From NCBI RefSeq assembly GCF_031085175.1, contig NZ_JAVHUY010000006.1, positions 62,001 to 126,000 on the forward strand: DNA of 64,000 nucleotides, in the 5' to 3' direction. This DNA comes from Phytohabitans maris (GTDB lineage Bacteria; Actinomycetota; Actinomycetes; Mycobacteriales; Micromonosporaceae). This document shows positions 5,152 through 63,738 of the stretch, piece by piece; position 1 is the first letter of the stretch, and every line of letters starts with the position of its first letter. The notes below the pieces were generated by a model. That model was not told where the DNA came from, ran no database searches, and saw nothing but the letters and a program-made list of their open reading frames with translations. The position numbers and the translations under genes are program-made.

Positions 5152-5602
5152 GGGCGGCGCCGACGAGGGCGATCGCGGCGGTGACGGTGGTGCCGTCCGG
5201 GCCGGTCTCCACGACCACGTCTTCGCTGAGGCGGCGCACGATCCAGAGGCCGCGCCCGCCCAGCGCGGTCGGCTCCGGCGGGCGGGAGCCGGCGGCCGGG
5301 TCCGGCATGCCCGGGCCCTGGTCGCTGATCCGGCAGCGCAGCAGGTCGCCGTCGCGCCACAGCCGCAGCCGCCCGGTGCCGCCGCCGTGCCGGATCGCGT
5401 TGGTGGCCAGCTCGCCGCCGACGATCAGCAGCCGTTCCACCTGCTCGGGGGTGGCGCCCAGGTGGTCGGCGTGCGCGGCCAGCGCGGCCCGCAACGCGTA
5501 CAGCCCGTCCGCGTCGAACTGGTGGTCCACGGCGACCGCCTCGGGACCCATCGTCGGCGCCGGCCCGGCCCGGTCCCGGGCGGGCGGGTCAGCGCTGGTC
5601 AT
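5114..5602 (-). CDS. RsbW-like anti-sigma factor / ATP-binding serine kinase
   Basis: A 162-residue protein made almost entirely of a GHKL (HATPase_c_2) domain. The N box is IVGGELATNAIRHG, the G1 box ISDQGPGMPD and the G2 box GGRGLWIVRRL, in the right order and spacing. Proteins of this size and fold bind a sigma factor and phosphorylate an STAS-domain antagonist in partner-switching cascades. An STAS protein is encoded 174 bp away on the opposite strand, which fits a small partner-switching module. No sigma factor lies next to it. The gene is convergent with, and overlaps by 38 bp, the glycosyltransferase. An internal ATG (MGPEAV) could be the true start, since the first ATG has only a weak ribosome site. 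Confidence 0.88.
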   Translation of the reverse strand: MTSADPPARDRAGPAPTMGPEAVAVDHQFDADGLYALRAALAAHADHLGATPEQVERLLIVGGELATNAIRHGGGTGRLRLWRDGDLLRCRISDQGPGMPDPAAGSRPPEPTALGGRGLWIVRRLSEDVVVETGPDGTTVTAAIALVGAALTADGRQRPRSG

Positions 5603-15321: not shown

Positions 15322-15373
15322 CCCATGCGGCCGCCGGGTCCCCGGTGGCGCACCCGGCGAGCTGGTGAGGACG

Positions 15374-15402
15374 CTCTCACGGAAGTCTCAGCCCGGCCTC
15401 AT
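15374..15402 (+). promoter_or_regulatory. Triple response-regulator box, site 1 (PIG-L operon)
   Basis: Three heptamers CTCTCAC, GTCTCAG and GCCTCAT start exactly 11 bp apart (15374, 15385, 15396), a spacing typical of OmpR/PhoB-type response regulators binding one face of the helix. They end 22 nt before the GTG at 15425. The same arrangement precedes three other transcripts of this cluster. Confidence 0.65.
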
Positions 15403-15424
15403 GCCGCCCGCCGACGCTGAGCCC

Positions 15425-16327
15425 GTGACCGTACCGATGTCCGCGCTCCTCCTCGTCGCCCTCCTGGCCGCCGCGACGGCCGCACTGGGCGGGACCCGCA
15501 CGCTGCGGCGGCGGTTTCGTCGCCCGCGGCTGATCCAGGCGGCGGCGCTCGCGTCCGCGGCGCTGCTCGTGCCGCCGAACGCGCTCCACGCCGCCGCCGG
15601 CACGCCCGGCCCGGCCGCGGCACTCCTGCTGGCCGCCAGCCTCGCCGCGCTCTCCACGGTGGCCGGGCTCGCCGCCGCCCTCCGGATCACCGCCCCGCCG
15701 GCCCGGCTGCCGCGCCGGGTGCTCGCGGTCGGTGCCCACCCCGACGACGTCGAACTCGCCTGCGGCGGCACGCTGCTGCGGCTGGTCGACTCCGGCCACG
15801 AGGTACGCGTGCTGGTGATGAGCCGGGGCGGTGCCGGTGGCGACCCGGCGACCCGCGCCCGGGAGGCGACGGCCGGCGGCCTCTTCCTCGGCGTGACCGG
15901 GGTCGAGGTGCTCGACCTGCCGGACACCCGGCTGGCCGCCCACGAGAACGAGATGGCCGCCGCGATCGAGGAGGCGATCCGCCGGTACCGCCCCGACATC
16001 GTCTTCACCCACTCCGCCAACGACCAGCACCAGGACCATCGCGCCGTGCACGCCGCCACGCTCCGTGCCGGCCGCGGCCACCCCGCGCTGCTCTGCTACG
16101 AGAGCCCGTCGGCGACGGCGGACTTCCGGCCGAGCGTCTTCGTGGACATCGCCGAGCACCTGGAGGCGAAGGTCGGGGCGGTCGCCGCGCACCGGGGGCA
16201 GCGCGCCAAGCCGTACGCCCGGGAGGCCCGGGTCCGCGGCCTCGCCGCCTTCCGCGGCAACCAGGCCCGGCTGCGGCGGGCCGAGGGCTTCGAGCCGGTA
16301 CGGCTGCCGCTCGTGGAAGAGTCCTGA
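15425..16327 (+). CDS. Membrane-anchored PIG-L/LmbE-type deacetylase
   Basis: A 300-residue zinc-dependent N-acetylglucosamine-type deacetylase. The metal motif is AHPDDVE (104-110), with the further ligand in DQHQDHRAVH. The family normally removes acetyl from GlcNAc in mycothiol, GPI or antibiotic intermediates. Unusually, three hydrophobic helices (about 6-22, 37-54, 62-86) precede the domain, which suggests membrane tethering. The GTG at 15425 is chosen over the ATG at 15401 because that ATG lies inside the regulator box, and because 22 nt from box to start matches the other sites, so the transcript is probably leaderless. Its TGA overlaps the next ATG (TGATG). Followed by ATP-grasp and GT2 genes, it may act on a surface polymer precursor. 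Confidence 0.88.
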   Translation: MTVPMSALLLVALLAAATAALGGTRTLRRRFRRPRLIQAAALASAALLVPPNALHAAAGTPGPAAALLLAASLAALSTVAGLAAALRITAPPARLPRRVLAVGAHPDDVELACGGTLLRLVDSGHEVRVLVMSRGGAGGDPATRAREATAGGLFLGVTGVEVLDLPDTRLAAHENEMAAAIEEAIRRYRPDIVFTHSANDQHQDHRAVHAATLRAGRGHPALLCYESPSATADFRPSVFVDIAEHLEAKVGAVAAHRGQRAKPYAREARVRGLAAFRGNQARLRRAEGFEPVRLPLVEES

Positions 16328-17142
16328 TGCCCCGGGTACTGGTGACCGGCGCGGGCGGGCCGGCGGGGACGGCGCTGCTGGCGGTGCTCGCCGAGCGGGG
16401 CGTGCCGGCGGTGGGCGCGGACATGCTGCCGCTGCCGCCCCGCGCCGGCGTACCGATCGAGCGGATCCTGCCCGCCGGCGCGCCGCTGTTCGAGTCCGAG
16501 GTCCTCCGCCTCGCCGCGCGCCACCGGGTCGACCTCGTGGTGCCCACCGTCACCGAGGAACTGCCGCGGATGGCCGCGCTCGCCGCCGCCCGGGCCGCGC
16601 CGCCGCGGATCGCCGTCGGTACGCCCGAGGCGGTCGCGGTCGCCGACGACAAGTGGCGCACCGTCCAGGTGCTCGCCCGCGCCGGGATCGCGGTACCCCG
16701 TTCGGTGGTCGCCGGCACGGCCGATCCGGTCCGCGTGCTCGGCCTGCCGTACCTCAGCAAGCCCCGCCACGGTCGTGGTGGCCGGGGGGTGAGCCTGCAC
16801 CACGAGCCGGGCGGGCCGCGGACCACCGACCACGTGCTGCAGGAGTACGTGCCCGGCGACGAGTACGCCGTCCAGCTCTACGGCGCCGTGTCCGTGGTGC
16901 TGCGCAAGACGGCGCTCGCGCAGGGGCACGTGGGCAACGGGGTCGCCGTCGTGCGGGAGGAGCACCCGGACGTCGCCGCCGTGGCGCGGGCCGCGGTCGG
17001 CACGCTCGGGCTGACCGGGCCGGTCGACGTGGACGTGCGGCGCCGCGCCGACGGTACCCCGGTGGTGCTGGAGGTCAACGCCCGCTTCGGCGCCCACCTG
17101 CGCAGCGCGCCGGAGCTCGTCGACCAGCTGCTCAGCCCATGA
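16327..17142 (+). CDS. ATP-grasp ligase
   Basis: A 271-residue ATP-grasp protein (carbamoyl-phosphate-synthase large-subunit-like). The N-terminal preATP-grasp Rossmann part is MPRVLVTGAGGPAGTALL. The ATP-binding core has DDKWRT, LSKPRHGRGGRGV (the phosphate-covering loop) and QEYVPGDEYAV. The metal-binding end is VLEVNARFGAHL. The enzyme would activate a carboxylate with ATP and join it to an amine. No substrate can be read off. It overlaps both neighbours (TGATG and ATGA), so it is tightly coupled with a deacetylase that exposes amines and a GT2 synthase. Aminoacylation of the product is a reasonable hypothesis. Confidence 0.9.
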   Translation: MPRVLVTGAGGPAGTALLAVLAERGVPAVGADMLPLPPRAGVPIERILPAGAPLFESEVLRLAARHRVDLVVPTVTEELPRMAALAAARAAPPRIAVGTPEAVAVADDKWRTVQVLARAGIAVPRSVVAGTADPVRVLGLPYLSKPRHGRGGRGVSLHHEPGGPRTTDHVLQEYVPGDEYAVQLYGAVSVVLRKTALAQGHVGNGVAVVREEHPDVAAVARAAVGTLGLTGPVDVDVRRRADGTPVVLEVNARFGAHLRSAPELVDQLLSP

Positions 17143-18395
17143 TCGACGCACTGCACGCCGTGGTGCTGGTCGCCGGCGTACCCCTCGTCGTGCTCGGCCT
17201 GCTGGAGCTCGCCTACTACCCGCTCGCGTTCGCCGCCGAGCTGCGCCGCCGCCACGATCCGGTCTTCGAGACGCTGCTGCCGAGCGTGTCGGTGATCGTG
17301 CCGGCGTACAACGAGGAGCGGGTCATCGCCGCCTGTGTCGCCTCGATCGTCGCCGACCGCTATCCGCGCAAGGAGATCATCGTCGTGGACGACGGCTCGA
17401 CCGACGGTACGCTCGCCGCGCTCCGGCCGTTCACCCACTACGCCGACGTCACCGTGATCACCAAGGCGAACGGCGGCAAGGCGGCCGCCCTCAACGCCGG
17501 CCTGCGGTACGCGGGCGGGGAGATCTGCTGCTTCGTCGACGCGGACGGGATCTTCACCCGGGACACGATCACCAACCTGCTGCGCGGCTTCCGCGGCCCC
17601 GAGGTCGGCGGCGTCTGCGGCAACGACGAACCGGTCAACCTCGACCGCCCGCAGACCCGCCTGCTCGCGCTGCTCACCCACGGCACCGCGCTGGCCCGCC
17701 GCGCGCTCGCCCTGGTCGGCTGCCTCACCGTGGTCTCCGGCAACTGCGGCGCCTTCCGGCGGCGGGTGGTCGACGAGGTCGGCGGCTTCCGGGAGGGTTC
17801 GCTCGGCGAGGACCTGGAGCTCACCTGGCGGGTCCGCGCCGCCGGCCACCGCATCGCGTTCCAGCCCGGGGCCCTCGTGTACGCCGAGGTGCCGGCCACG
17901 CTCACCGGGCTGTGGCGGCAGCGGATCCGCTGGACCCGCGGGCTCGTGCAGACCGCCCGCCTGCACCGGCACCTGGTCGGCAGCCGGCGGCACGGGCGGC
18001 TCGGCCCGTACCTGGTGCACAACCTCGTCACGATGCTCGCCGCGCCGGTCCTCCAGCTGGTCGCCCTCGGCGCCGCGCTCGCCCTGGTGGCGGTCGGGCA
18101 CTCGCCGGTACCGGCCAGCCTGCCCGCCGTCGCGGTCTGGCTCGGCCTCGGCGTCGCGCTGGTCAACGTGCTGGTCGCGGTCTTCCTCGACCGGGCCTGG
18201 CGGGACCTGCGCTTCCTCTACGTGCTGCCGCTGGTCGCCGCGTTCTCCGTCTTCATGTCGCTGGTCACCGCCACCGCCCTCTGGAAGGAGGCCCGGGGTG
18301 CGCCGGCCAGGTGGAACAAGCTCGACCGAACGGGTGTGAAGACCCGCACGGGTGACGGCCACCCGACACATAAAGATGTCTTCACCAACCGCTGA
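17139..18395 (+). CDS. Membrane GT2 glycosyltransferase (PgaC/HAS-like processive synthase)
   Basis: A 418-residue family 2 glycosyltransferase with one N-terminal helix (about 5-30) and three or four C-terminal helices (about 295-400). That topology is typical of processive synthases such as poly-GlcNAc or hyaluronan synthase. Catalytic signatures in order are VIVPAYNEE, VDDGSTDGT, FVDADG (donor/metal site), GEDLELTWR (catalytic base) and the processivity motif QRIRWTRG. GNCGAFRR precedes the base as in PgaC. It is the last gene of the overlapping PIG-L/ATP-grasp/GT2 operon. The likely product is a beta-linked amino-sugar or similar polymer, with the sugar unproven. Confidence 0.92.
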   Translation: MIDALHAVVLVAGVPLVVLGLLELAYYPLAFAAELRRRHDPVFETLLPSVSVIVPAYNEERVIAACVASIVADRYPRKEIIVVDDGSTDGTLAALRPFTHYADVTVITKANGGKAAALNAGLRYAGGEICCFVDADGIFTRDTITNLLRGFRGPEVGGVCGNDEPVNLDRPQTRLLALLTHGTALARRALALVGCLTVVSGNCGAFRRRVVDEVGGFREGSLGEDLELTWRVRAAGHRIAFQPGALVYAEVPATLTGLWRQRIRWTRGLVQTARLHRHLVGSRRHGRLGPYLVHNLVTMLAAPVLQLVALGAALALVAVGHSPVPASLPAVAVWLGLGVALVNVLVAVFLDRAWRDLRFLYVLPLVAAFSVFMSLVTATALWKEARGAPARWNKLDRTGVKTRTGDGHPTHKDVFTNR

Positions 18396-18431
18396 GGCCC
18401 GGCTTACGGACCCTCCGCAGACTCCGGAGTC

Positions 18432-18905
18432 ATGGTCCAGGGTAGGAGCAGAAGGCCGGCCCGGCGCCGCGCCGTCATCGCGCTGGTGCTCGCCGCCTCG
18501 CTGACCGCCACCGTGATCGGTGTGCAGCCGGTGTGGGCGATGACGTTCACGGTCAACAGCACGGCGGACGAGGCGGCCGAGATGGCCCGAACCTTCAACG
18601 CGATGCTGGACCGGCTGGAGGCGGTCTTCCGCCGGGAGCGGGAGTTCATCGTCGACGCCAGCCACGAGCTGCGCGGCCCGCTCACCATCTCGCTGGGCAA
18701 CCTCGGGCTGCTGGGGCACGCGGTGACCGACACCGAGGAGCGGCGGCGTACGGTCGCGCTGGTCTGCGACGAGCTGGAGCGGATGGGTCGGATCGTCGGC
18801 GACCTGCACCTGCTGCTGATCCTGGACATCGGGCTGCCCGGCCGGGGCGGCTTCGAGAACGTGATCGAGACACTGCGCGGCTTCGGCTACCGGCTGCGTA
18901 CATGA
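18432..18905 (+). pseudogene. Chimeric remnant: CSLREA-type leader + histidine kinase core + response regulator pieces
   Basis: A 157-codon open frame assembled from parts of unrelated genes. Residues 1-36 are an export signal and 37-47 (MTFTVNSTADE) match the opening of CSLREA-type secreted proteins. Residues 48-129 are the end of a HAMP and the HisKA helix pair with the phospho-acceptor motif DASHELRGPL (His78). Residues 129-141 (ILDIGLPGRGGF) are a receiver phospho-site segment, and 142-157 (VIETLRGFGYRLR) are the end of an OmpR winged helix. Catalytic ATPase and nearly all receiver and DNA-binding sequence are missing. The kinase part resembles the intact kinase downstream (ARTFNAML, then SHEL vs GHEL). 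It remains in frame throughout, so it could still be expressed, but I regard it as the scar of nested deletions. Confidence 0.75.
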
Positions 18906-18910
18906 GAGCC

Positions 18911-18939
18911 CTCTCATCCGCGCCTCATCGGGTGATCAC
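18911..18939 (+). promoter_or_regulatory. Triple response-regulator box, site 2 (two-component operon)
   Basis: Heptamers CTCTCAT, GCCTCAT and TGATCAC start at 18911, 18922 and 18933, again 11 bp apart. The third is the weakest match but keeps the TCA core. They end 22 nt before the ATG of a 24-codon frame at 18962. Position implies autoregulation of the two-component operon. Confidence 0.55.
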
Positions 18940-18961
18940 GCTTCTCGGCCAGGATCGGGGG

Positions 18962-19036
18962 ATGAGCGAGCGAATCATCGGGCACAGCGCTGTTGGTGCC
19001 TCATGCCCGCCCGCGGCGAAGCGAGGACGGGCATGA
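18962..19036 (+). CDS. Possible 24-residue leader peptide
   Basis: ATG AGC GAG CGA opens a 24-codon frame (MSERIIGHSAVGA... ending KRGRA). Its TGA overlaps the ATG of the Asp-rich protein in an ATGA arrangement. Support comes from position: its ATG lies exactly 22 nt after the regulator box, as do two other starts in this cluster, and the transcript would therefore be leaderless. Translation of the leader would bring ribosomes to the downstream start. The peptide has no recognised similarity. Without expression data it may be only a coupling leader. Confidence 0.45.
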   Translation: MSERIIGHSAVGASCPPAAKRGRA

Positions 19037-19398
19037 GCGCTCAGCAGTGGGCCACCGGGATCGGGCTGGTGGCGCTGGCCACGCTGCTGACCGGCGTCGG
19101 CCTGCCGGCGCTGCTCCCGCCCGACCGGGTGCCGGCCATCGAGATCACCGTGCCGGCCGCTCACGAGGTTCAGCCAGGGCAGAATGAGACGGCACCGCCC
19201 AGTGCGGGCACCGTACCCAGGCCCGCCAGCGGAGACGACGACGATGACGATGCCGACGACCGGCCCGCCCGGCCACCCGCCGCCGGAGGCGGGTCCGGAC
19301 CCGACGATGACGATGCCCCTGCCCGTCCCGCAGACGACGACTCCGACGACGGTGGCGGCGGGGACGACGATGGGGGCGACGACGGGGACGACGACTGA
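19033..19398 (+). CDS. Exported or membrane-anchored Asp-rich acidic protein
   Basis: A 121-residue protein with one hydrophobic segment (about residues 6-28) and a very acidic C-terminal half. Residues 67-121 consist mainly of Asp runs separated by Gly, Pro and Ala, such as SGDDDDDDADD and DDDGGDDGDDD. Such tails bind divalent cations. Located directly upstream of, and overlapping, the histidine kinase gene, it could be an extracytoplasmic ligand or metal-buffering partner of the sensor (inference). The start at 19033 follows GAGGACGGG and overlaps the leader stop. The GAC repeats, read one base later, give the Thr-rich start of the kinase. Confidence 0.72.
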   Translation: MSAQQWATGIGLVALATLLTGVGLPALLPPDRVPAIEITVPAAHEVQPGQNETAPPSAGTVPRPASGDDDDDDADDRPARPPAAGGGSGPDDDDAPARPADDDSDDGGGGDDDGGDDGDDD

Positions 19399-20806
19399 GC
19401 GGAGCCGCTGGCGGCCGCCCCTCGGGCTGCGGCTGCGCCTGCTCGGCTGGGCGCTCGTGCTGCTCTGCATCGCCAGCCTCGCCTCGGTCGTCGTGATCCG
19501 GCAGGTGCTGCTCAACCAGCTGGAGAACCGGATCACCGCGGACATGCGGCAGGAGGTGACCGAGTTCCGCCGCCTGGTCGACGGGCGCAACCCCACCACG
19601 GGGCAGCCGTTCGGCACCGACCTGCGGGCGATCGCCGACACGTACCTGCTGCGCAACGAGCCGCAGCCGGGCGAGGCGGTGCTGGTCTTCGTCGACGGCG
19701 CGTTCTACCGCTCCACCGGCGACCCGCCGTACGACCTGGCCGCCGACGCCGCGCTCGTGGCCCGCTGGACCGCGCTGCGCGACAGCGCGTACGGGGAGGT
19801 CGACGGCGGGGCGGCCGGCGCCGGGCGGTGGCTGGCCGTGCCGGTCGTCATCGACGGCGCGGTACGCGGGCACGTGGTGGTCGCCGAGTTCGGCGCCGAG
19901 CGGCGCGCCGAGATCGACCGCGCCGTGCAGATCATGGCGCTCGCCTGCCTGCTCGTACTCGTGGTCGTGGCCGCCGGCGGGTACCTCGCGATGGGCCGGG
20001 CCCTGCGCCCGCTGCGCCAGGTCACCGAGACCGCCCGGGTCATCGAGGAGACCGACCTGTCCCGGCGGATCGAGGTGACCGCCACCGACGAGGTCGCCGA
20101 CCTGGCCCGCACGTTCAACGCGATGCTCGGCCGGCTGGAGGGGGCGTTCGCCGCGCAGAAGGCGTTCGTCGCCGACGCCGGCCACGAGCTGCGTACCCCG
20201 ATCACGATCGTCCGCGGCCACCTGGAGCTGATGGGCGACGACCCGGCCGAGCGGGCCGAGACCGTCGCGCTGGTCACCGACGAGCTCGACCGGATGAACC
20301 GGATGGTCGACGACCTGCTCGTGCTGGCCCGGGCCGAGCAGCCCGACTTCCTGCAGCTCGACCGGGTCGACGTGGCACCGATGACACACGAGGTGTACGC
20401 CAAGGCGGTGGCGCTCGGCGACCGCGACTGGCGGCTCGGCGAGGTGGCCGAGGTGACGGTCTGGGCCGACCGGCAGCGGCTCACCCAGGCGCTGATGCAG
20501 CTTGCCCAGAACGCCGTCCAGTTCACCGCCGCCGGCGACCGGATCGAGCTCTCCGCCCGCGCCGAGCACGGCCGGGTGCTGCTCGCGGTACGGGACACCG
20601 GCCCGGGCATCGAGCCGGAGGAGCGGGAGCGGATCTTCGCCCGCTTCGCCCGGGGCCGCGACGGCCGGGCCCGTGCCGAGGGTACCGGCCTCGGCCTGGC
20701 CATCGTCGCCGCCATCGCCCAGGCCCACCGGGGCGCGGTCGCGGTGGACAGCGTGCCGGGGGCGGGCGCGACGTTCACGCTGGTGCTGCCGGGCGCGCCG
20801 CGATGA
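19370..20806 (+). CDS. Sensor histidine kinase
   Basis: A 478-residue transmembrane sensor kinase of the OmpR-partner type. Helix 1 is at about 22-44, an extracytoplasmic domain of about 140 residues follows, and helix 2 is at about 187-206. Then come HAMP (207-259), HisKA with FVADAGHELRTPIT (His272) and HATPase with NAVQFTAAGD (N box), DTGPGIEPEE (G1) and GTGLGLAI (G2). All functional boxes are intact. The first residues MGATTGTTTE come from the same GAC-repeat DNA that encodes the Asp tail of the preceding gene; upstream in-frame ATGs exist, so the true start could be earlier. It overlaps the response regulator by ATGA. Confidence 0.94.
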   Translation: MGATTGTTTERSRWRPPLGLRLRLLGWALVLLCIASLASVVVIRQVLLNQLENRITADMRQEVTEFRRLVDGRNPTTGQPFGTDLRAIADTYLLRNEPQPGEAVLVFVDGAFYRSTGDPPYDLAADAALVARWTALRDSAYGEVDGGAAGAGRWLAVPVVIDGAVRGHVVVAEFGAERRAEIDRAVQIMALACLLVLVVVAAGGYLAMGRALRPLRQVTETARVIEETDLSRRIEVTATDEVADLARTFNAMLGRLEGAFAAQKAFVADAGHELRTPITIVRGHLELMGDDPAERAETVALVTDELDRMNRMVDDLLVLARAEQPDFLQLDRVDVAPMTHEVYAKAVALGDRDWRLGEVAEVTVWADRQRLTQALMQLAQNAVQFTAAGDRIELSARAEHGRVLLAVRDTGPGIEPEERERIFARFARGRDGRARAEGTGLGLAIVAAIAQAHRGAVAVDSVPGAGATFTLVLPGAPR

Positions 20807-21465
20807 ACCGGATCCTCATCGCCGAGGACGAGCCGCGGATCGCCTCGTTCCTGACCAAGGGGCTGCGCGCCGCCGGGTACGTCACCACGGTCGTCGAGAC
20901 CGGCGTCGACGCGGCCGCGTACGCGCGCGGCGCCGACTTCGACGCGCTCATCCTCGACCTGGGGCTGCCCGGCCAGGACGGGCTCTCGGTGCTGGCCCAG
21001 ATCCGGGCCCGGGGCGAGCGCCTGCCGGTGATCGTGCTGACCGCCCGGGACGCGGTGCCGGACCGGGTCACCGGGCTGGACCAGGGCGCCGACGACTACA
21101 TGACCAAGCCGTTCAGCTTCGAGGAGCTGCTCGCCCGGCTGCGGGCCCGGCTCCGCGACCGGGGCCGGGACACCCCGACCACGCTGCGCGCCGGCGCGGT
21201 CGTGATGGACCTGGTGCGGCGCACCGTCACCGTCGACGGGCAGCCGGTCGAGCTGACCGCCCGTGAGTTTCTGCTCGCCGAGACGCTGATGCGCCACCCC
21301 GGCCAGGTGCTCAGCCGCGAGCAGCTGCTCGACCGGGTATGGGGCCTCGCGCACGACCCCAGCTCCAACGTCGTGGACGTCTACATCGGATACCTGCGCC
21401 GCAAGCTCGGCCAGGAGCTCATCCACACGGTACGCGGCGTGGGTTACCGGCTGCGCGAACCCTAA
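20803..21465 (+). CDS. OmpR/PhoB-family response regulator
   Basis: A 220-residue regulator. The receiver has the acidic pair in AEDEP, phospho-acceptor Asp52 (LILDLGLPG), Thr in VLTARD and Lys in TKPFSF. The winged helix spans about 125-220 with LTAREFLLAETLMRHPGQVLSREQLL and the recognition helix SSNVVDVYIGYLRRKL. Coupled to the kinase gene by ATGA. The most probable binding sites are the triple NNYTCAY boxes with 11-bp period found at four promoters within 7.4 kb, including its own operon and the divergent-function genes on either side. Confidence 0.95.
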   Translation: MNRILIAEDEPRIASFLTKGLRAAGYVTTVVETGVDAAAYARGADFDALILDLGLPGQDGLSVLAQIRARGERLPVIVLTARDAVPDRVTGLDQGADDYMTKPFSFEELLARLRARLRDRGRDTPTTLRAGAVVMDLVRRTVTVDGQPVELTAREFLLAETLMRHPGQVLSREQLLDRVWGLAHDPSSNVVDVYIGYLRRKLGQELIHTVRGVGYRLREP

Positions 21466-21470
21466 GCGGA

Positions 21471-21499
21471 CTCTCACCCGCGGTTCACCGTCCACTCAC
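21471..21499 (+). promoter_or_regulatory. Triple response-regulator box, site 3 (APH-like kinase)
   Basis: CTCTCAC, GGTTCAC and CACTCAC start at 21471, 21482 and 21493, in perfect 11-bp phase, beginning 5 bp after the response regulator stop. They end 22 nt before the ATG at 21522. A weak -10-like GATCGT lies 6 nt before that ATG, consistent with a leaderless transcript. Confidence 0.65.
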
Positions 21500-21521
21500 G
21501 ACGGTGGTCGATCGTCGTGGC

Positions 21522-22760
21522 ATGACCCGACTGCTCACCGGACCCGACGCGGGCGACCTGCTCGGCGTCGCCCTGCACCCCGGGCGGCTGCTGTCCTGGC
21601 GCGCCCGGCAGGTCGACCACCAGCCCGGCCGGGGCTGCACCGCCGCGTACGAGGTGCGCGTGCGCTGGCCGGACGGGCGCGACACGCACGAGCGGATGGC
21701 CGCCTGCACGGGGCGGGTCCCGGCCGGCGTGACCGTGCTCGACGACGGCGCCGAGCGGGTCGGCGTCTGGCGCTACCCGTACGACCCGGACCTGCCCGCG
21801 CTCGCCACGGCCGCCGACGGCACCGCGGTCGCGGCGCTGCTCGACGGCTTCGGGCTGGGCGGCGGGCCGGTGCGGCTGGCCCTGCGCGCGTACCGGCCGC
21901 GCCGCCGGGCGGTCATCGAGGCGGTGGGGGAGCGGGGCCGGCTCTTCCTTAAGGTGGTACCCCCCGGCCGGGTACGCCGGCTGCACGAGCGGCACCGGAC
22001 GCTGGTCGCCGCCGGCGTGCCTGCCGCGCCCAGCCTCGGCCACACGCCGGACGGGCTGCTGGTGCTCCAGGCGCTCCCCGGCCGTACCCTGCGGCAGGCA
22101 CTGCGGCACGGCTTTCCGGTGCTGCCACCGGCGTCCGCCGTACTCGCGCTGCTGGACCGCCTGCCGGCGGAGCTGGCTTCTGGCCGGCGGCGCCGCACCT
22201 GGGCGGAGAAGGCGCCGCACTACGCCGCGGTCGTGGGCGCGGCGCTGCCCCCGGCGGGGGAGCGGGCGGCGGCGCTCGCCGCGGCGATCGGCGCCGAGGG
22301 CGGGCGGGGCGCGGTGGTGCCGGTGCACGGCGACCTCTACGAGGCGCAGCTCCTCGTCGCCGGCGACCGGGTCACCGGCCTGCTCGACATCGACACCGCT
22401 GGCGCGGGGGAACGCCTGGACGACCTCGCCTGCGTGCTCGGCCACCTCTCCGTGCTGGCCGACCTCTACCGTCCACAAGCGACAGCCATCAACCGGCTCG
22501 GCGCCCGCTACCTCGGCGCGTTCGAGCGGTCGGTGGACCCGGCGGACCTGCGCTACCGGACCGCGGCGGTGGTGCTGTCGCTGGCGACCGGCCCGCACCG
22601 CGTGCAGGAGCCGGGCTGGCCGGCCGCCACCCAGCGCCGCCTGGACCTGGCCGAGCGGTGGGTGGCGAGCGCGCGGACCATGAAAGGCTCCTCATCCCGC
22701 CGCCATGCCCGTCTCACCGCGCCCGCACAGGCTGAAACCCACACGCAGAAGGAGGAGTGA
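21522..22760 (+). CDS. Aminoglycoside phosphotransferase-family (APH/ChoK-like) kinase
   Basis: A 412-residue small-molecule kinase. The catalytic loop VPVHGDLYEAQLLV and metal site LLDIDTAGAGERLDDLACVLGH match the APH/choline kinase fold. The first 150 residues are an added domain (CTAAYEVRVRWPDG, VGVWRYPYDPDLPAL) that looks like the substrate-anchoring module of maltokinase-type proteins. No Shine-Dalgarno is visible; position relative to the regulator boxes indicates a leaderless ATG. The last 25 residues run through the promoter of the next gene. Its substrate might be a sugar, lipid head group or amino sugar of the same pathway (inference); antibiotic resistance is not implied. Confidence 0.86.
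   Translation: MTRLLTGPDAGDLLGVALHPGRLLSWRARQVDHQPGRGCTAAYEVRVRWPDGRDTHERMAACTGRVPAGVTVLDDGAERVGVWRYPYDPDLPALATAADGTAVAALLDGFGLGGGPVRLALRAYRPRRRAVIEAVGERGRLFLKVVPPGRVRRLHERHRTLVAAGVPAAPSLGHTPDGLLVLQALPGRTLRQALRHGFPVLPPASAVLALLDRLPAELASGRRRRTWAEKAPHYAAVVGAALPPAGERAAALAAAIGAEGGRGAVVPVHGDLYEAQLLVAGDRVTGLLDIDTAGAGERLDDLACVLGHLSVLADLYRPQATAINRLGARYLGAFERSVDPADLRYRTAAVVLSLATGPHRVQEPGWPAATQRRLDLAERWVASARTMKGSSSRRHARLTAPAQAETHTQKEE
22689..22717 (+). promoter_or_regulatory. Triple response-regulator box, site 4 (Ser/Asp-rich protein)
   Basis: TCCTCAT, CCGCCAT and GTCTCAC start at 22689, 22700 and 22711. The 11-bp period is kept and the middle box is the most degenerate. They lie inside the 3' end of the APH-like gene. 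Here a 44-nt gap with a strong AAGGAGGAG site leads to the ATG, so this transcript has a leader. Confidence 0.55.
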
Positions 22761-22761
22761 C

Positions 22762-23163
22762 ATGCGGCTATCACGACCCTGGCGGGTCGCCGTCGCGGGA
22801 GCCGGCGCCGCCGCCATCCTGGCCGGCGTCGCGGGTGCGGCCACGGCCAGCGACGGCATCCAGCTCAACGACAAGGTGCAGCCGATCGAGATCGGCGGTA
22901 ACCTGGACGCGGGTACCGCTGGCGCGGACGACTCGGCGGAGTCGGCCGACAGCGCGGGCGAGTCCCCGTTCGACTCGGCCGGCTCGGCCGGCGACAGCCC
23001 CGGCGATCCGAAGTGGACGGACCCGTCGCCGGAGTCCGCCGACAGCGCCGCCGAGTCGGCGAACGACTCGCCCGCCCCGCCCCGCAAGCCGGCGAAGGCC
23101 AAGCCCGCCGGCGACTCCGCCGGCTCGGGTGACTCCGGCGGCTCCGCCGACTCCGGCGACTGA
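22762..23163 (+). CDS. Secreted Ser/Asp-rich low-complexity protein
   Basis: A 133-residue protein with a Sec signal (AAAILAGVAGAATA, cleavage near residue 29) and a mature part dominated by short Ser-Ala-Asp repeats (DSAESADSAGES, ESADSAAESANDS, SGDSGGSADSGD). It has no folded domain. The middle PPRKPAKAKP is basic. AAGGAGGAG precedes the ATG. It is the fourth transcript with regulator boxes, and the second acidic exported protein of the cluster. A flexible surface or matrix polyanion is plausible; Ser-rich stretches could be glycosylated. Confidence 0.78.
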   Translation: MRLSRPWRVAVAGAGAAAILAGVAGAATASDGIQLNDKVQPIEIGGNLDAGTAGADDSAESADSAGESPFDSAGSAGDSPGDPKWTDPSPESADSAAESANDSPAPPRKPAKAKPAGDSAGSGDSGGSADSGD

Positions 23164-60900: not shown

Positions 60901-63738
60901 CTGCTCACCGCGACGGTGCCGGCGACCGGCGACTGGCAGGTGTACACCGACGTCTCGGTCGACCTTCCGGCGCCGCAGGCGAGCACCGGGCCGCTCTACT
61001 TCGTGGCCCGCAACAACCCCGGCGACACGGGCGGGGGCGGCCTGCTCAACGTGAACTGGGTCGACTTCCTCGGCCGCGGCGTGACCGACAACGCGCCACC
61101 GGTGGTGAGCGTCTCGGCGACCCCGACCACGGGCACCGCGCCGGTGAACGTGGAGTTCACCGGTACCGCCACGGACGCGGAGGGCGACACGCCGCTCACG
61201 TACGCCTGGGACTTCGGTGACGGCGGGACGGCGGACACGCTGAACGCCACGCACACCTACACCGCGCCGGGTACGTTCACCGCCACGCTGACGGTGACCG
61301 ACGCCCGGGGTGCCAAGGCGTACGGGACCGTGCCCATCAAGGTGGACGCGCCGAACACGTCCTGCTTCGGGGCGCGCTCGGACGACTTCCTCGGCTCCAC
61401 TCTGGACAAGACCCGCTGGTCCACAGTGGTCCGCGAGAACCAGCTCTACTCCGTACAGGGTGGGTCGCTGGTCCTGCCCACCGGAGTGGGTGACCTCTAC
61501 GGCAGCCGCAACGACGCCACCAACCTCGTGCTCCAGCCCGCGCCCAGCGGTGCCTGGCAGGCCACGACGAAGCTGACGCTCGCGACGGCGGAGAACTACC
61601 AGCAGGCCGGGCTCCTGGTGTACGGCGACGACGAGAACTACGCCAAGCTCGACGTGCTCTTCTCCGGCAGCCGCCGGCTCGAGTTCATCCGGGAGACGGC
61701 CGGTACCCCGCGCAACGAGGGTGCCGACAGCGCCGCCGCACCGACCGGGTCGGACCCGATCTACCTGCGGCTGACCAGTGACGGGACCAACCTGACCGCG
61801 TCGTTCTCGGCCGACGGCCAGACCTTCACCCCGGTGGGCCGGGCGGCCGCGCTGGCCGGCATCACCAACCCGAAGGTGGGCCTGTTCGCCCTCCAGGGCG
61901 GCACGACCGCGCCGGTGGTCGACGCGACGTTCGACTGGTTCCAGATCACGCCGGACGAGCCGGCCGGTCCGGTGAACCCGTCCGACGAGTTCGACGGCAC
62001 CAGCCTGGACAAGTGCCGCTGGGACGCGATCGTCCGCGAGGACCCGGCCGCGTACCGGGTGCAGGGCGGTTCGCTCCATGTCGACGTGCCGAACGGCGAC
62101 ATCTACACGGGCAACAACACCGGTCCGACGAACTTCATCCTCCAGCAGGCGCCAGCGGGTGACTGGGTCCTGGAGACGAAGGTCGACGGAAGCCTGTTGA
62201 ACGAGCAGTACCAGCAGGCCGGTCTGCTCGTGTACGCCGACGACGACAACTACCTGAAGCTCGACTACATCGTGGACAACACGGCCGGGCAGCCGGTGAC
62301 GCGGCGGATCGAGTTCCGCAGCGAGATCGGCAGCGCGGTGCAGAATCCACAGCCCCAGGTCACCAACCTCACCGGCGCGGTGTGGTACCTGCGGCTGGCC
62401 AGGGTGGGCGACGTCTACACCGCGTCGTACTCGGCGGACGGGCAGACCTGGACCGCGTTCGAGCCGCTGACCAGTACGGCGGTGGGCGCGACCCCGAAGG
62501 TGGGCCTGTTCTCGCTCGGCGCGGCGCAGACCGCCAGCAAGACGGTCTCGTTCGACTACTTCCGGCTGAGCACGGAGGCTGAGGACGGCACCGCGCCGGT
62601 GACGGTCTCCACGGTGGACGGTACGGCGGTCGAGGGCTGGTACACCGGGCCCGCGACGGTCACGCTGGCCGCCACGGACAACGAGGGCGGCAGCGGGGTG
62701 GCCCGCACCGAGTACCAGCTCGACGCCGCCACGACCTGGACCGCGTACACCGAGCCGATCCTGGTGGCCGGCGACGGGACGCACGAGGTGCGCTTCCGCT
62801 CGGTCGACGAGGCCGGCAACGTGGAGGCGACGAAGTCCACCGCGGTGAGGATCGACGCGACCGCGCCGGTGACCACGGCGACGTTCGCCCCGCCGTCGGA
62901 CGGCGGCTGGAACGCGGGGGTGGTCCCCGTGACGCTCGCCTCGACCGACGCCGGCTCGGGCGTCTCCACTGTGGAGTGGTCGCTCGACGGTGGCCCGTGG
63001 ACGCCGTACACGCAGCCGGTCGACGTGACCGGCGACGGCGAGCACGAGCTGCTCTACCGCGCCACGGACAAGGCCGGCAACGCCGAGACGCTCAAGTCGG
63101 CGGTGCTGCGGATCGACGGCGACTCCCCGACGGTCCTCGTCTCCGGCCTCGCCGACGGCCAGCTCTACGGCGACAGCCAGGACGTGCGGGTCACGTTCGG
63201 AGCGGTCGACCCGACCTCCGGCATCCAGTCGGTGGTCGGCAAGCTGGACGGCACGCCGTACCAGTCCGGGACGCTGCAGGTCATGTACGACCTGACGCTC
63301 GGCCTGCACGAGCTGGTCGTGACGGCCACCGACAAGGCGGGCAACGAGACGACGGCGAACGTGCGGTTCTTCGTCACCACCTCGTTCCGCGACATGCAAA
63401 ACCTGATCGACCGGTTCAAGGCGACCGGCCAGCTCTCCAACAAGGCGCACCGCCAGCTGTCGAACAAGCTGGAGGCGGCGCGGGTGTCGGAGGCGACCGG
63501 CAACGACAAGCGGGCCGTGCAGCAGCTGCGGGCGTTCGTCGGGCTCGCCTCGGACACCGCGCTGGTCACCGACCCGGACGTGCGCGCCGTGCTCGTCCGC
63601 GACGCCGAAGCCATGATCGTCCGGTTGGGCGGCGAGGCGACGGCGGCCGGCAAGAAGGCCAACGGAAACAAGTCGCTGTCCGGCACCGGCCGCGTCGAGG
63701 GCGACCCGACCCGGCTGCCGGAGGGCGGCACGCTCTAG
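57922..63738 (+). CDS. 1938-residue secreted ThuA / PQQ-type sugar dehydrogenase / PKD / CBM6 multidomain protein
   Basis: Domains in order: a signal ending AQA (41), ThuA-like domain (about 48-270), soluble sugar dehydrogenase six-bladed propeller (about 280-705; MELDIAPDGRVFYIERDGRV, GDNTNPF, RNPFRIGID, EWNVVTPGNYGWPYC), PKD 1 (713-795), an Ig-like stretch (797-905), CBM6 (908-1050; GFQNIGFVEDGDWWSFDP), PKD 2 (1057-1145), two concanavalin/DUF1349-like domains (1150-1348, 1355-1550; both with YQQAGLLVYxDDxNY), three OmpL47/Ig-like repeats (1555-1815; EYQLDAATTWTAYTEP, EWSLDGGPWTPYTQP) and a helical tail. The GTG at 57922 has AAGGAGCTCC before it. The ThuA domain is paralogous to that at 49.6 kb. 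It would bind polysaccharide and oxidise sugars outside the cell. Confidence 0.93.
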   Translation: MPVNRRSRRARGAARRMLFTAAAALLTAASALVAGPAPAQAAPVEQAAADPFSILVFSKTAGFRHDSIPAGIAAIQQLGADNGFTVDATEDAGAFTDANLDRYAAVVWLSTTGDVLDADQQAAFERYIRGGGGYAGIHAASDTEYSWAWYGDLVGAYFASHPANQTATIKVEDPAHPSTAHLPAKWTRFDEWYNFQTNPRADVHVLASLDERTYTPGAGAMGADHPTAWCHDFDGGRAWYTGSGHTIESYSEPDFLAHLLGGIQTAAGAVDAGCAASQTSSFEKVTLDSNTQNPMELDIAPDGRVFYIERDGRVQIVKPDTGTTVTAIDLDVFTGNEDGLIGIRLDPDFASNGWVYLYYAPNDGIARNRVGRFTVAGDSIALSSEKVVLEVTTQRNTCCHAGGSMVFDGAGNLYLATGDNTNPFESNSFNPIDERPGRQDYDAQRTSGNTNDLRGKVIRIHPEDDGTYTIPEGNLFPPGTAQTRPEIYAMGFRNPFRIGIDKQTDTLYVGDYGPDAGAANPDRGPEGTVEWNVVTPGNYGWPYCHGANYAYNDYTFPSGPSGPKFDCAAPVNNSPNNTGLTSLPPAISATVDYDYSGNPLYPEIGGGGAPMGGPVYRYDAALASDRKWPAYYDGKAMFGEWNQNKMYAFQLDEDAKSLVDINQLLAGMTFLRPMDFEFGPDGALYIIEWGTGFGGNNDDSGVYRIDFIAGDRAPIAVASAEPTSGQPPLTVQFSSEGSRDPDGGTLTYAWTFGDGGTSDQPNPSHQYTAAGNYTAQLTVTNPKGRTAVANVPVTVGNTAPTVTIEFPPQGGFFDWGDQVNYRVEVTDPEDGEIDCSKVTLQTYLGHDEHAHPLQSYTGCEGTVQTSLGSGHGADANVFTVFEATYTDEGGSGGANPLTGRAIEQLQPKRKQAEYFSATGKAPDGLGTGDPGVVRETTGDTAGGFQNIGFVEDGDWWSFDPTNLSGIDTLRFRVASGGNGGTIQVRTGAFDGPLLLTATVPATGDWQVYTDVSVDLPAPQASTGPLYFVARNNPGDTGGGGLLNVNWVDFLGRGVTDNAPPVVSVSATPTTGTAPVNVEFTGTATDAEGDTPLTYAWDFGDGGTADTLNATHTYTAPGTFTATLTVTDARGAKAYGTVPIKVDAPNTSCFGARSDDFLGSTLDKTRWSTVVRENQLYSVQGGSLVLPTGVGDLYGSRNDATNLVLQPAPSGAWQATTKLTLATAENYQQAGLLVYGDDENYAKLDVLFSGSRRLEFIRETAGTPRNEGADSAAAPTGSDPIYLRLTSDGTNLTASFSADGQTFTPVGRAAALAGITNPKVGLFALQGGTTAPVVDATFDWFQITPDEPAGPVNPSDEFDGTSLDKCRWDAIVREDPAAYRVQGGSLHVDVPNGDIYTGNNTGPTNFILQQAPAGDWVLETKVDGSLLNEQYQQAGLLVYADDDNYLKLDYIVDNTAGQPVTRRIEFRSEIGSAVQNPQPQVTNLTGAVWYLRLARVGDVYTASYSADGQTWTAFEPLTSTAVGATPKVGLFSLGAAQTASKTVSFDYFRLSTEAEDGTAPVTVSTVDGTAVEGWYTGPATVTLAATDNEGGSGVARTEYQLDAATTWTAYTEPILVAGDGTHEVRFRSVDEAGNVEATKSTAVRIDATAPVTTATFAPPSDGGWNAGVVPVTLASTDAGSGVSTVEWSLDGGPWTPYTQPVDVTGDGEHELLYRATDKAGNAETLKSAVLRIDGDSPTVLVSGLADGQLYGDSQDVRVTFGAVDPTSGIQSVVGKLDGTPYQSGTLQVMYDLTLGLHELVVTATDKAGNETTANVRFFVTTSFRDMQNLIDRFKATGQLSNKAHRQLSNKLEAARVSEATGNDKRAVQQLRAFVGLASDTALVTDPDVRAVLVRDAEAMIVRLGGEATAAGKKANGNKSLSGTGRVEGDPTRLPEGGTL

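Follow-up and report, generated by a model that had tools for sequence, protein, structure and literature searches.

A proposed operator-promoter-start module at a predicted local two-component regulon of Phytohabitans maris, and its recurrence beside related regulators in Actinobacteria and Cyanobacteria

The window analyzed here is a stretch of 64,000 nucleotides of Phytohabitans maris (assembly GCF_031085175.1, contig NZ_JAVHUY010000006.1, forward strand, positions 62,001 to 126,000), which encodes a two-component system surrounded by four promoter sites of one design. Judged from the sequence, this design is one rigid operator-promoter-start unit of about 60 bases, hereafter called the module, composed of a dyad, two direct repeats at 11-bp steps, a -10-like element and a start. 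The module is very probably the binding site of the adjoining response regulator, because the same switch adjoins related regulators in many actinobacteria and cyanobacteria. We therefore consider it highly likely that the four sites are operators through which the regulator encoded at 20803-21465 activates its own operon and the flanking targets. A local regulon of the neighboring two-component system had been predicted in a preliminary description of this DNA, and the prediction is supported by the four highest ranks in a genome scan, by the sites at orthologous promoters and by the co-occurrence of site and regulator.

The preliminary description had recognized the sites by three heptamers at 11-bp steps at 15374, 18911, 21471 and 22689. 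A scan of both strands found them at these positions, with no further triple set in the 64 kb. The exact pattern TCA-N8-TCA-N8-TCA occurs three times on the two strands together (15374, 18911 and 21471), against a mean of 0.03 per shuffle in 30 first-order Markov shuffles. Permitting one mismatch added a single distinct site, at 22689, the remaining rows being shifted registers of known sites. As the seven one-mismatch rows are not clearly above the shuffle mean of 3.0 (standard deviation 2.3), the site at 22689 rests on conservation and not on counting. A chance origin of the triples was ruled out by their rarity in the shuffles together with their conservation and their co-occurrence with the regulator. 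The triple alone is a weak signature: in the form with three TCAY cores it has seven exact matches genome-wide, two in the window and five elsewhere. As a sufficient signature it was rejected, none of the five outside matches being among the top five matches of the model.

Two models of the complete module were used, R1 made from the first 19 sites and R2 from 38 sites of other genomes, none of them from this genome. A genome-wide matrix scan had been proposed earlier, and with R2 the matches indeed concentrate at the window. The top 150 of 13,500 first-look candidates in the 9.87-Mb genome were scored, and the window sites take ranks 1 to 4, with 37.4 (module 4), 34.2 (module 2), 30.7 (module 1) and 27.4 bits (module 3). 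The next matches, two at 17.1 bits (E 0.05), lie about 10 bits lower. R1 placed the same four sites first and gave the fifth match 22.7 bits. This fifth match (C37:71221-71272 of the own genome G000, near 5222 of locus L195; 17.1 bits with R2) precedes an alpha/beta-hydrolase-like open reading frame at leaderless distance and is probably due to chance. On its other side lies a divergent gene for a large regulator that, by reading of the sequence, resembles a SARP with an NTPase domain.

The anatomy of the module differs in one respect from the three direct heptamers originally described. The 11-bp steps stand, whereas box 1 belongs to an inverted repeat, of which it forms the right half. An upstream element 11 bp before box 1 pairs with it as ATGAGA-N4-TCTCAT (6-4-6), and in 101 non-redundant sites the paired positions covary (-4/3, p < 0.0005; -3/2, p 0.0005; -8/7, p 0.005; -6/5, p 0.01; permutation tests that ignore the relatedness of the sites). 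A 7-2-7 dyad was rejected, for the next inward pair (-2/1) lacks covariation (p 0.48). Reading the upstream element as a fourth direct repeat was rejected as well: the direct register agrees only at the T and the A (0.96 and 0.95), the other five positions reaching 0.02-0.31. The inverted repeat is thus preferred, because the direct register disagrees and the dyad pairs covary. The upstream T and A are kept in 69 of 74 sites picked without scoring the upstream element, in stretches that had been fetched by a model including it. In the 19 aligned sites of the first set the upstream T and A, CTCA of box 1, CA of box 2, A of box 3 and the A and T of the -10 element are invariant, and a C precedes the TCA of box 1 in all 19. 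This set omits matches in a register shifted one step upstream, the match L054 4299- and the one-mismatch match L053 14100-. Within the window the dyads at 15365, 18902, 21462 and 22680 match in 5, 6, 3 and 4 of the six pairs, respectively. As a variant of the arrangement, divergent promoters in a relative (G024) and on an acidimicrobial contig (L054:7301-7394, L060:7996-8089) share one common dyad with the repeats running outward on both sides.

Downstream of the boxes the spacing is equally strict. A hexamer NANNNT lies exactly 10 nt past box 3 at all four window sites, and at 15425, 18962 and 21522 the start codon follows 6 nt behind it, leaving no room for a ribosome-binding site. The gap of 22 nt from the last heptamer to these three starts, as given in the preliminary description, is exact. 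The 19 aligned promoters have no conserved -35 element and a weak -10 element of which only the A and T are kept; boxes 2 and 3 span, by their coordinates, roughly positions -40 to -23 relative to the predicted transcription start and overlap the -35 region. By eye, the start codon stands 5-7 nt past the hexamer at 15 of 15 promoters of the first set, a count that excludes four apparently leadered ones (L053 1191 and the three sites ahead of the Ser/Ala/Asp-repeat gene). In a survey of 148 genomes of the class, 32 of the 69 sites with an open reading frame have their first counted start at +50 to +54, a count that considered only the first frame from +45 on and missed some starts at +53. Three of the four window sites thus likely produce leaderless mRNAs. 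The leaderless geometry proposed for these sites is supported by the invariant A and T and by the 15 of 15 spacings; it is qualified at 18962, where the start lies inside an inserted repeat. At the fourth site the strong Shine-Dalgarno sequence and leader reported before are present, and relatives keep the leader.

Conservation between genomes points in the same direction. Orthologs of the regulator at 81-99% identity occur in 6 of 40 relatives, and the six fetched stretches carry the boxes at orthologous promoters, some with one mismatch. More specifically, all six have the module ahead of the acidic-protein/kinase operon (two with one mismatch in the triple), and three have it ahead of the APH gene; the acidic repeat protein and PIG-L are each preceded by it in two. 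G001 and G024 carry the APH gene on a separate contig, and R1 flagged two places on each of these contigs. Of the four sites, all untrained, two precede APH relatives and one a relative of the acidic repeat protein, and the fourth is at the matching place, at a contig end. Leader and Shine-Dalgarno sequence are kept at the repeat-protein sites and the leaderless distance at the others. PIG-L matches of at least 60% identity were present in three of ten genomes checked (G000, which is the own genome, G023 and G024), with the module ahead of all three; G015 has PIG-L matches of only 42% and 33%, located elsewhere. In G023 the PIG-L match is split into two pieces, and in G024 the PIG-L, ATP-grasp and family 2 glycosyltransferase genes are all present, the last being inverted and having a module of its own.

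A further link between module and regulator comes from their joint distribution. In the class survey, the independent one of two (sites at R2 E <= 1e-4 from the best 38 candidates per genome, regulators at E <= 1e-60) sites were found in 33 genomes and the regulator in 44; 31 genomes have both, 2 only the site and 13 only the regulator. The share of genomes with a site is thus 31 of 44 where the regulator is present versus 2 of 104 where it is absent (Fisher p 3e-19, or 9e-19 minus the own genome), and in one of the two exceptions, G053, the contig ends behind the site within such a regulator, of which it encodes the first 29 residues. Moreover, 41 of 63 class sites have a listed relative of the regulator no more than 8 kb away, where about 0.1% would be expected. 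A smaller R1 survey of 41 genomes gave matches of at least 26.5 bits in 7 of 7 genomes with an ortholog (the own genome included) and in 1 of 34 others, in which the sole match lies 60 bp from a regulator of 49% identity.

The association extends beyond the class. Eighty named loci were fetched by the regulator: 22 actinobacterial, 28 cyanobacterial, a more distant group of 27 (among them four actinobacterial loci and the cyanobacterial L119, all at about 50% regulator identity), and L055-L057, which were omitted as too close to training sites. Matches above 15 bits were found at 21 of the 22 untrained actinobacterial loci (shuffles 1/110), at 7 of the 27 more distant ones (shuffles 2/135) and, with the same architecture within the fetched stretch, at 16 of the 28 cyanobacterial loci (shuffles 1/28). 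The best match lies directly behind the stop codon of the regulator in 6 of those 16 and up to about 9 kb off in the others. The tree of the regulators places the cyanobacterial rows in one group, modestly supported (84/58), among mainly actinobacterial sequences. At three cyanobacterial loci (L068, L075 and L125) the main regulator is followed by the site and then immediately by a short receiver-only response regulator.

Several points weigh against the sites being operators of the adjoining regulator. As to distribution, 22 of the 63 class sites have no listed regulator relative within 8 kb (for 6 the nearest is farther off along the contig, and 16 lie on contigs that carry none), 13 of the 44 regulator-bearing class genomes have no site at the threshold used, and 12 of the 28 cyanobacterial loci have no match above 15 bits. 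As to method, genomes of the class survey may overlap with the named species that supplied R2 sites, and the 41-genome survey is partly circular, its seven ortholog genomes having supplied the R1 sites; weaker R1 matches (E <= 0.01) turn up in 16 of the 41 genomes. The scoring of preselected candidates and the treatment of related sites as independent in the permutations belong here as well. Within the window itself, the dyad is perfect only at 18902 and pairs at just three of six positions at 21462.

The arrangement suggests how the switch would work. The phosphorylated regulator would first bind the 6-4-6 dyad as a symmetric dimer, after which further protomers would occupy the two direct repeats, the last of them abutting the -35 region. 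RNA polymerase would then be recruited to the weak -10 element, which has no -35 element of its own, in a class II type of activation. Transcription would start about 7 nt past the -10 element, at the first base of the start codon of the PIG-L gene, the APH gene and, ancestrally, the gene for the small acidic protein. In this way the regulator would turn on the operon that encodes it together with the acidic anchored protein and the kinase, the APH-type gene and the acidic repeat protein and, in this lineage, the PIG-L/ATP-grasp/glycosyltransferase cassette. The opposite sign of control is unlikely: a bound oligomer could block the polymerase, boxes 2 and 3 overlapping the -35 region of the core promoter, but a missing -35 consensus together with a weak -10 element is what activator-dependent promoters would show, and AgrR, which matches in geometry, is described as a type II activator (PMC7380067).

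In fact AgrR, a metal-responsive OmpR-family regulator of Cupriavidus metallidurans, provides the closest precedent. Its box consists of a 6-4-6 inverted repeat with in-phase direct half-sites and is linked to autoregulation and type II activation (PMC7380067). The dyad covariation reveals the same 6-4-6 operator geometry in the module. The half-site differs, being ATTACA in AgrR and TCTCAT here, and a direct repeat is described at some AgrR operators, whereas the module nearly always has two at 11-bp steps. The fixed -10 element and, at many promoters, the fixed leaderless start further set the module apart from AgrR as presented there. The best NCBIfam model for the regulator is TIGR01387 (CzcR/SilR/CopR) with 211.6 bits, 68 bits short of the cut-off of 279.2, and the regulator is therefore not filed with that group; likewise, the kinase has its best match in the heavy-metal sensor kinase model TIGR01386 (211 bits, cut-off 292.6 not reached). 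CopR and PcoR have metals as their signal. They resemble the present system in having a dyad operator and a copper-type OmpR-family regulator and differ in that the inverted repeat lies within 16 bp, with no ordered additional repeat pair mentioned in the passages citing them (PMC7380067). No metal-efflux gene was found among the nine window proteins scanned with Pfam.

A second candidate for the original binder is the regulator of a decayed, paralogous two-component system whose remnant precedes module 2; the four sites would then be relics. The remnant contains HisKA and part of HAMP, followed by short receiver and regulator C-terminal pieces in a single frame, and in the relatives G003 and G004 a kinase and regulator pair stands in its place. 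The site at 18911 comes directly after the last codons of the remnant, and five of the fetched stretches, those of G003, G004, G015, G023 and G024, contain such a second system (adjoining in three, about 10 kb off in G015 and G023). However, the system is broken in this genome and the sites persist, G001 keeps its sites with a next listed regulator match of 48% after the 85% ortholog, and the wider survey ties the sites to the regulator clade in general. We thus regard an origin as relics as quite improbable. Cross-binding by both paralogous regulators is possible.

It is slightly less plausible still that the boxes serve an OmpR-type regulator with a global regulon, the phosphate regulator PhoP being the foremost candidate. 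For Streptomyces the PhoP unit is written GtTCAccnnnn with a spacing of 11 nt, and the PolR site GTTCACnnnnnGTTCaC, so that both share with the module TCA-core direct repeats, an 11-nt period and an OmpR-type regulator (PMC6754071). The unit quoted there has no dyad, its core is GTTCAC instead of TCTCAY (the C before TCA in box 1 is present in 19 of 19 sites here), and it serves a phosphate or poly-P regulon instead of a single locus (PMC6754071). A global regulon would moreover be scattered, whereas all four good sites of the genome lie at one locus, and the presence of sites tracks the local regulator clade. The phosphate regulon was not matched, the four top sites being at one locus and their targets not being phosphate genes; the PhoP boxes of the genome were not searched. 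The PDB neighbors of the regulator (PrrA, PhoP, RegX3 and BasR) gave no hint of the operator. Binding by a SARP-type activator can be practically dismissed: SARP promoters (AfsR) similarly have, ahead of their -10 element, direct repeats with an 11-bp period, and a SARP-like gene is divergent at the weak fifth genome match, but SARPs are a protein class other than the OmpR type, are not known to use a dyad and act in antibiotic clusters, none was found among the nine locus proteins scanned with Pfam, the conserved partner of the sites is an OmpR-type regulator, and the module recurs in cyanobacteria, of which SARPs are to our knowledge not typical.

No description of the motif or the system was found in the open-access literature searched, most subscription papers lying outside that search. 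Within this literature the combination of module and regulator family is apparently undescribed, the mechanism itself not being of a new kind.

The features of the locus are collected in Table 1. The assignment of an OmpR/PhoB-type regulator made in the preliminary description agrees with Pfam, which finds a receiver and a winged-helix DNA-binding domain. For the Ser/Ala/Asp-repeat protein neither Pfam nor NCBIfam gave a match; secreted proteins with short acidic or N-T-A/S-A-D repeats recur under the module (window 22762-23163; L202-L207).

Table 1. Modules and genes of the locus (window coordinates)
Feature	Coordinates	Strand	Evidence and remarks
Module 1	15365..15418	+	dyad GTGAGG-N4-TCTCAC 15365-15380; repeats 15385-15391, 15396-15402; -10-like GACGCT 15413-15418; likely leaderless GTG 15425
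Module 2	18902..18955	+	dyad ATGAGA-N4-TCTCAT 18902-18917; repeats 18922-18928, 18933-18939; -10-like CAGGAT 18950-18955; ATG 18962; predicted autoregulatory promoter of the two-component operon
Module 3	21462..21515	+	dyad 21462-21477 with weak left half CTAAGC; repeats 21482-21488, 21493-21499; -10-like GATCGT 21510-21515; likely leaderless ATG 21522
Module 4	22680..22733	+	dyad ATGAAA-N4-CCTCAT 22680-22695; repeats 22700-22706 (CCGCCAT, deviant), 22711-22717; -10-like CAGGCT 22728-22733; gene ATG 22762
PIG-L type deacetylase, first gene of the PIG-L/ATP-grasp/family 2 glycosyltransferase cassette	15425..16327	+	Pfam PF02585 4e-31
ATP-grasp protein	16327..17142	+	Pfam PF02655 7e-16
Family 2 glycosyltransferase, PgaC-like	17139..18395	+	Pfam PF13641 2e-35; best NCBIfam TIGR03937, below cut-off
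Decayed remnant of a second, paralogous two-component system	18432..18905	+	Pfam HisKA; HAMP below cut-off
24-codon open reading frame from the conserved leaderless position, in a REP-like repeat	18962..19036	+	sequence; stop overlaps next ATG (ATGA)
Small N-terminally anchored Asp-rich protein, proposed third component	19033..19398	+	relatives start at the leaderless position
Sensor histidine kinase, start uncertain	19184..20806	+	Pfam HAMP, HisKA, HATPase_c; overlaps preceding gene
OmpR/PhoB-type response regulator, proposed binder of all four modules	20803..21465	+	Pfam PF00072 2e-27, PF00486 1e-28
APH-superfamily phosphotransferase	21522..22760	+	Pfam PF01636 1e-11
Secreted Ser/Ala/Asp-repeat protein, leadered	22762..23163	+	sequence; Shine-Dalgarno AAGGAGG; relatives also leadered

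The autoregulated operon deserves a separate consideration. In relatives the acidic protein begins at the leaderless ATG, whereas 71 bp separate the two starts in the window. The difference coincides with a repeat of about 75 bp (18962-19040) that resembles a repetitive extragenic palindrome (REP), with 51 matches listed in the own genome, itself included. The repeat creates the 24-codon frame from ATG 18962, whose stop overlaps ATG 19033, the start of the conserved gene here, so that the acidic protein may depend on translational coupling in the window, or on the GAGGA just before 19033. In the class survey a small protein follows 17 of the 19 modules that stand before a kinase. The 17 frames have 97-235 codons, start at +50 to +54 and encode proteins that are hydrophobic at the N-terminus and rich in Pro/Thr and Asp/Glu (15-30% D+E). 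In G138 (L253) the kinase itself starts at the leaderless position with no small protein between, and G149 (L259) is similar.

This recurrence suggests the small acidic anchored protein as a possible third component of the system. A wider proposal, which we offer tentatively and with more doubt than belief, is that the module marks an unrecognized signaling unit over Actinobacteria and Cyanobacteria that uses one locked 60-bp operator-promoter-start unit. In most of the actinobacteria sampled, its first leaderless product, a small membrane-anchored, acidic, Pro/Thr-rich protein, would assist the kinase, either as a co-sensor or as a feedback subunit, and would perhaps bind extracellular cations or cationic compounds. 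Our confidence in this wider proposal was lowered a little, because two of the 19 kinase operons lack the small protein.

The targets in other genomes are varied. Sorted by matches to the window proteins, 17 of the 71 distinct sites of the class survey precede a kinase and 7 an APH homolog, another 7 come immediately after the regulator with a different kind of gene behind them, and the remaining 40 are grouped as others; the two kinase operons of G138 and G149 were identified separately and bring the kinase operons to 19. Additional targets are a DUF4956 protein, a sodium:sulfate-symporter-type transporter (L256 and the Nostoc locus L066) and a glycosyltransferase-28-like protein (L235 and the cyanobacterial L064). 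Cyanobacterial targets include an RTX protein, a PAP2 protein and a P-type cation ATPase, the last behind the site at L058 and L059 (Pfam run for L058); these are weaker assignments, with about 200-830 bases between site and gene.

If the module is read correctly, the operator, the exact transcription starts and the regulon in each genome become predictable for an uncharacterized sensor and regulator family that is present in 44 of the 148 class genomes. As activator sites, promoter and start codon appear to be fixed as one unit, activator-dependent leaderless transcription would become directly testable. In addition, an operator conserved between two phyla would make further targets discoverable by simple scanning, and the family of small anchored acidic proteins is indicated as likely partners of the kinase.

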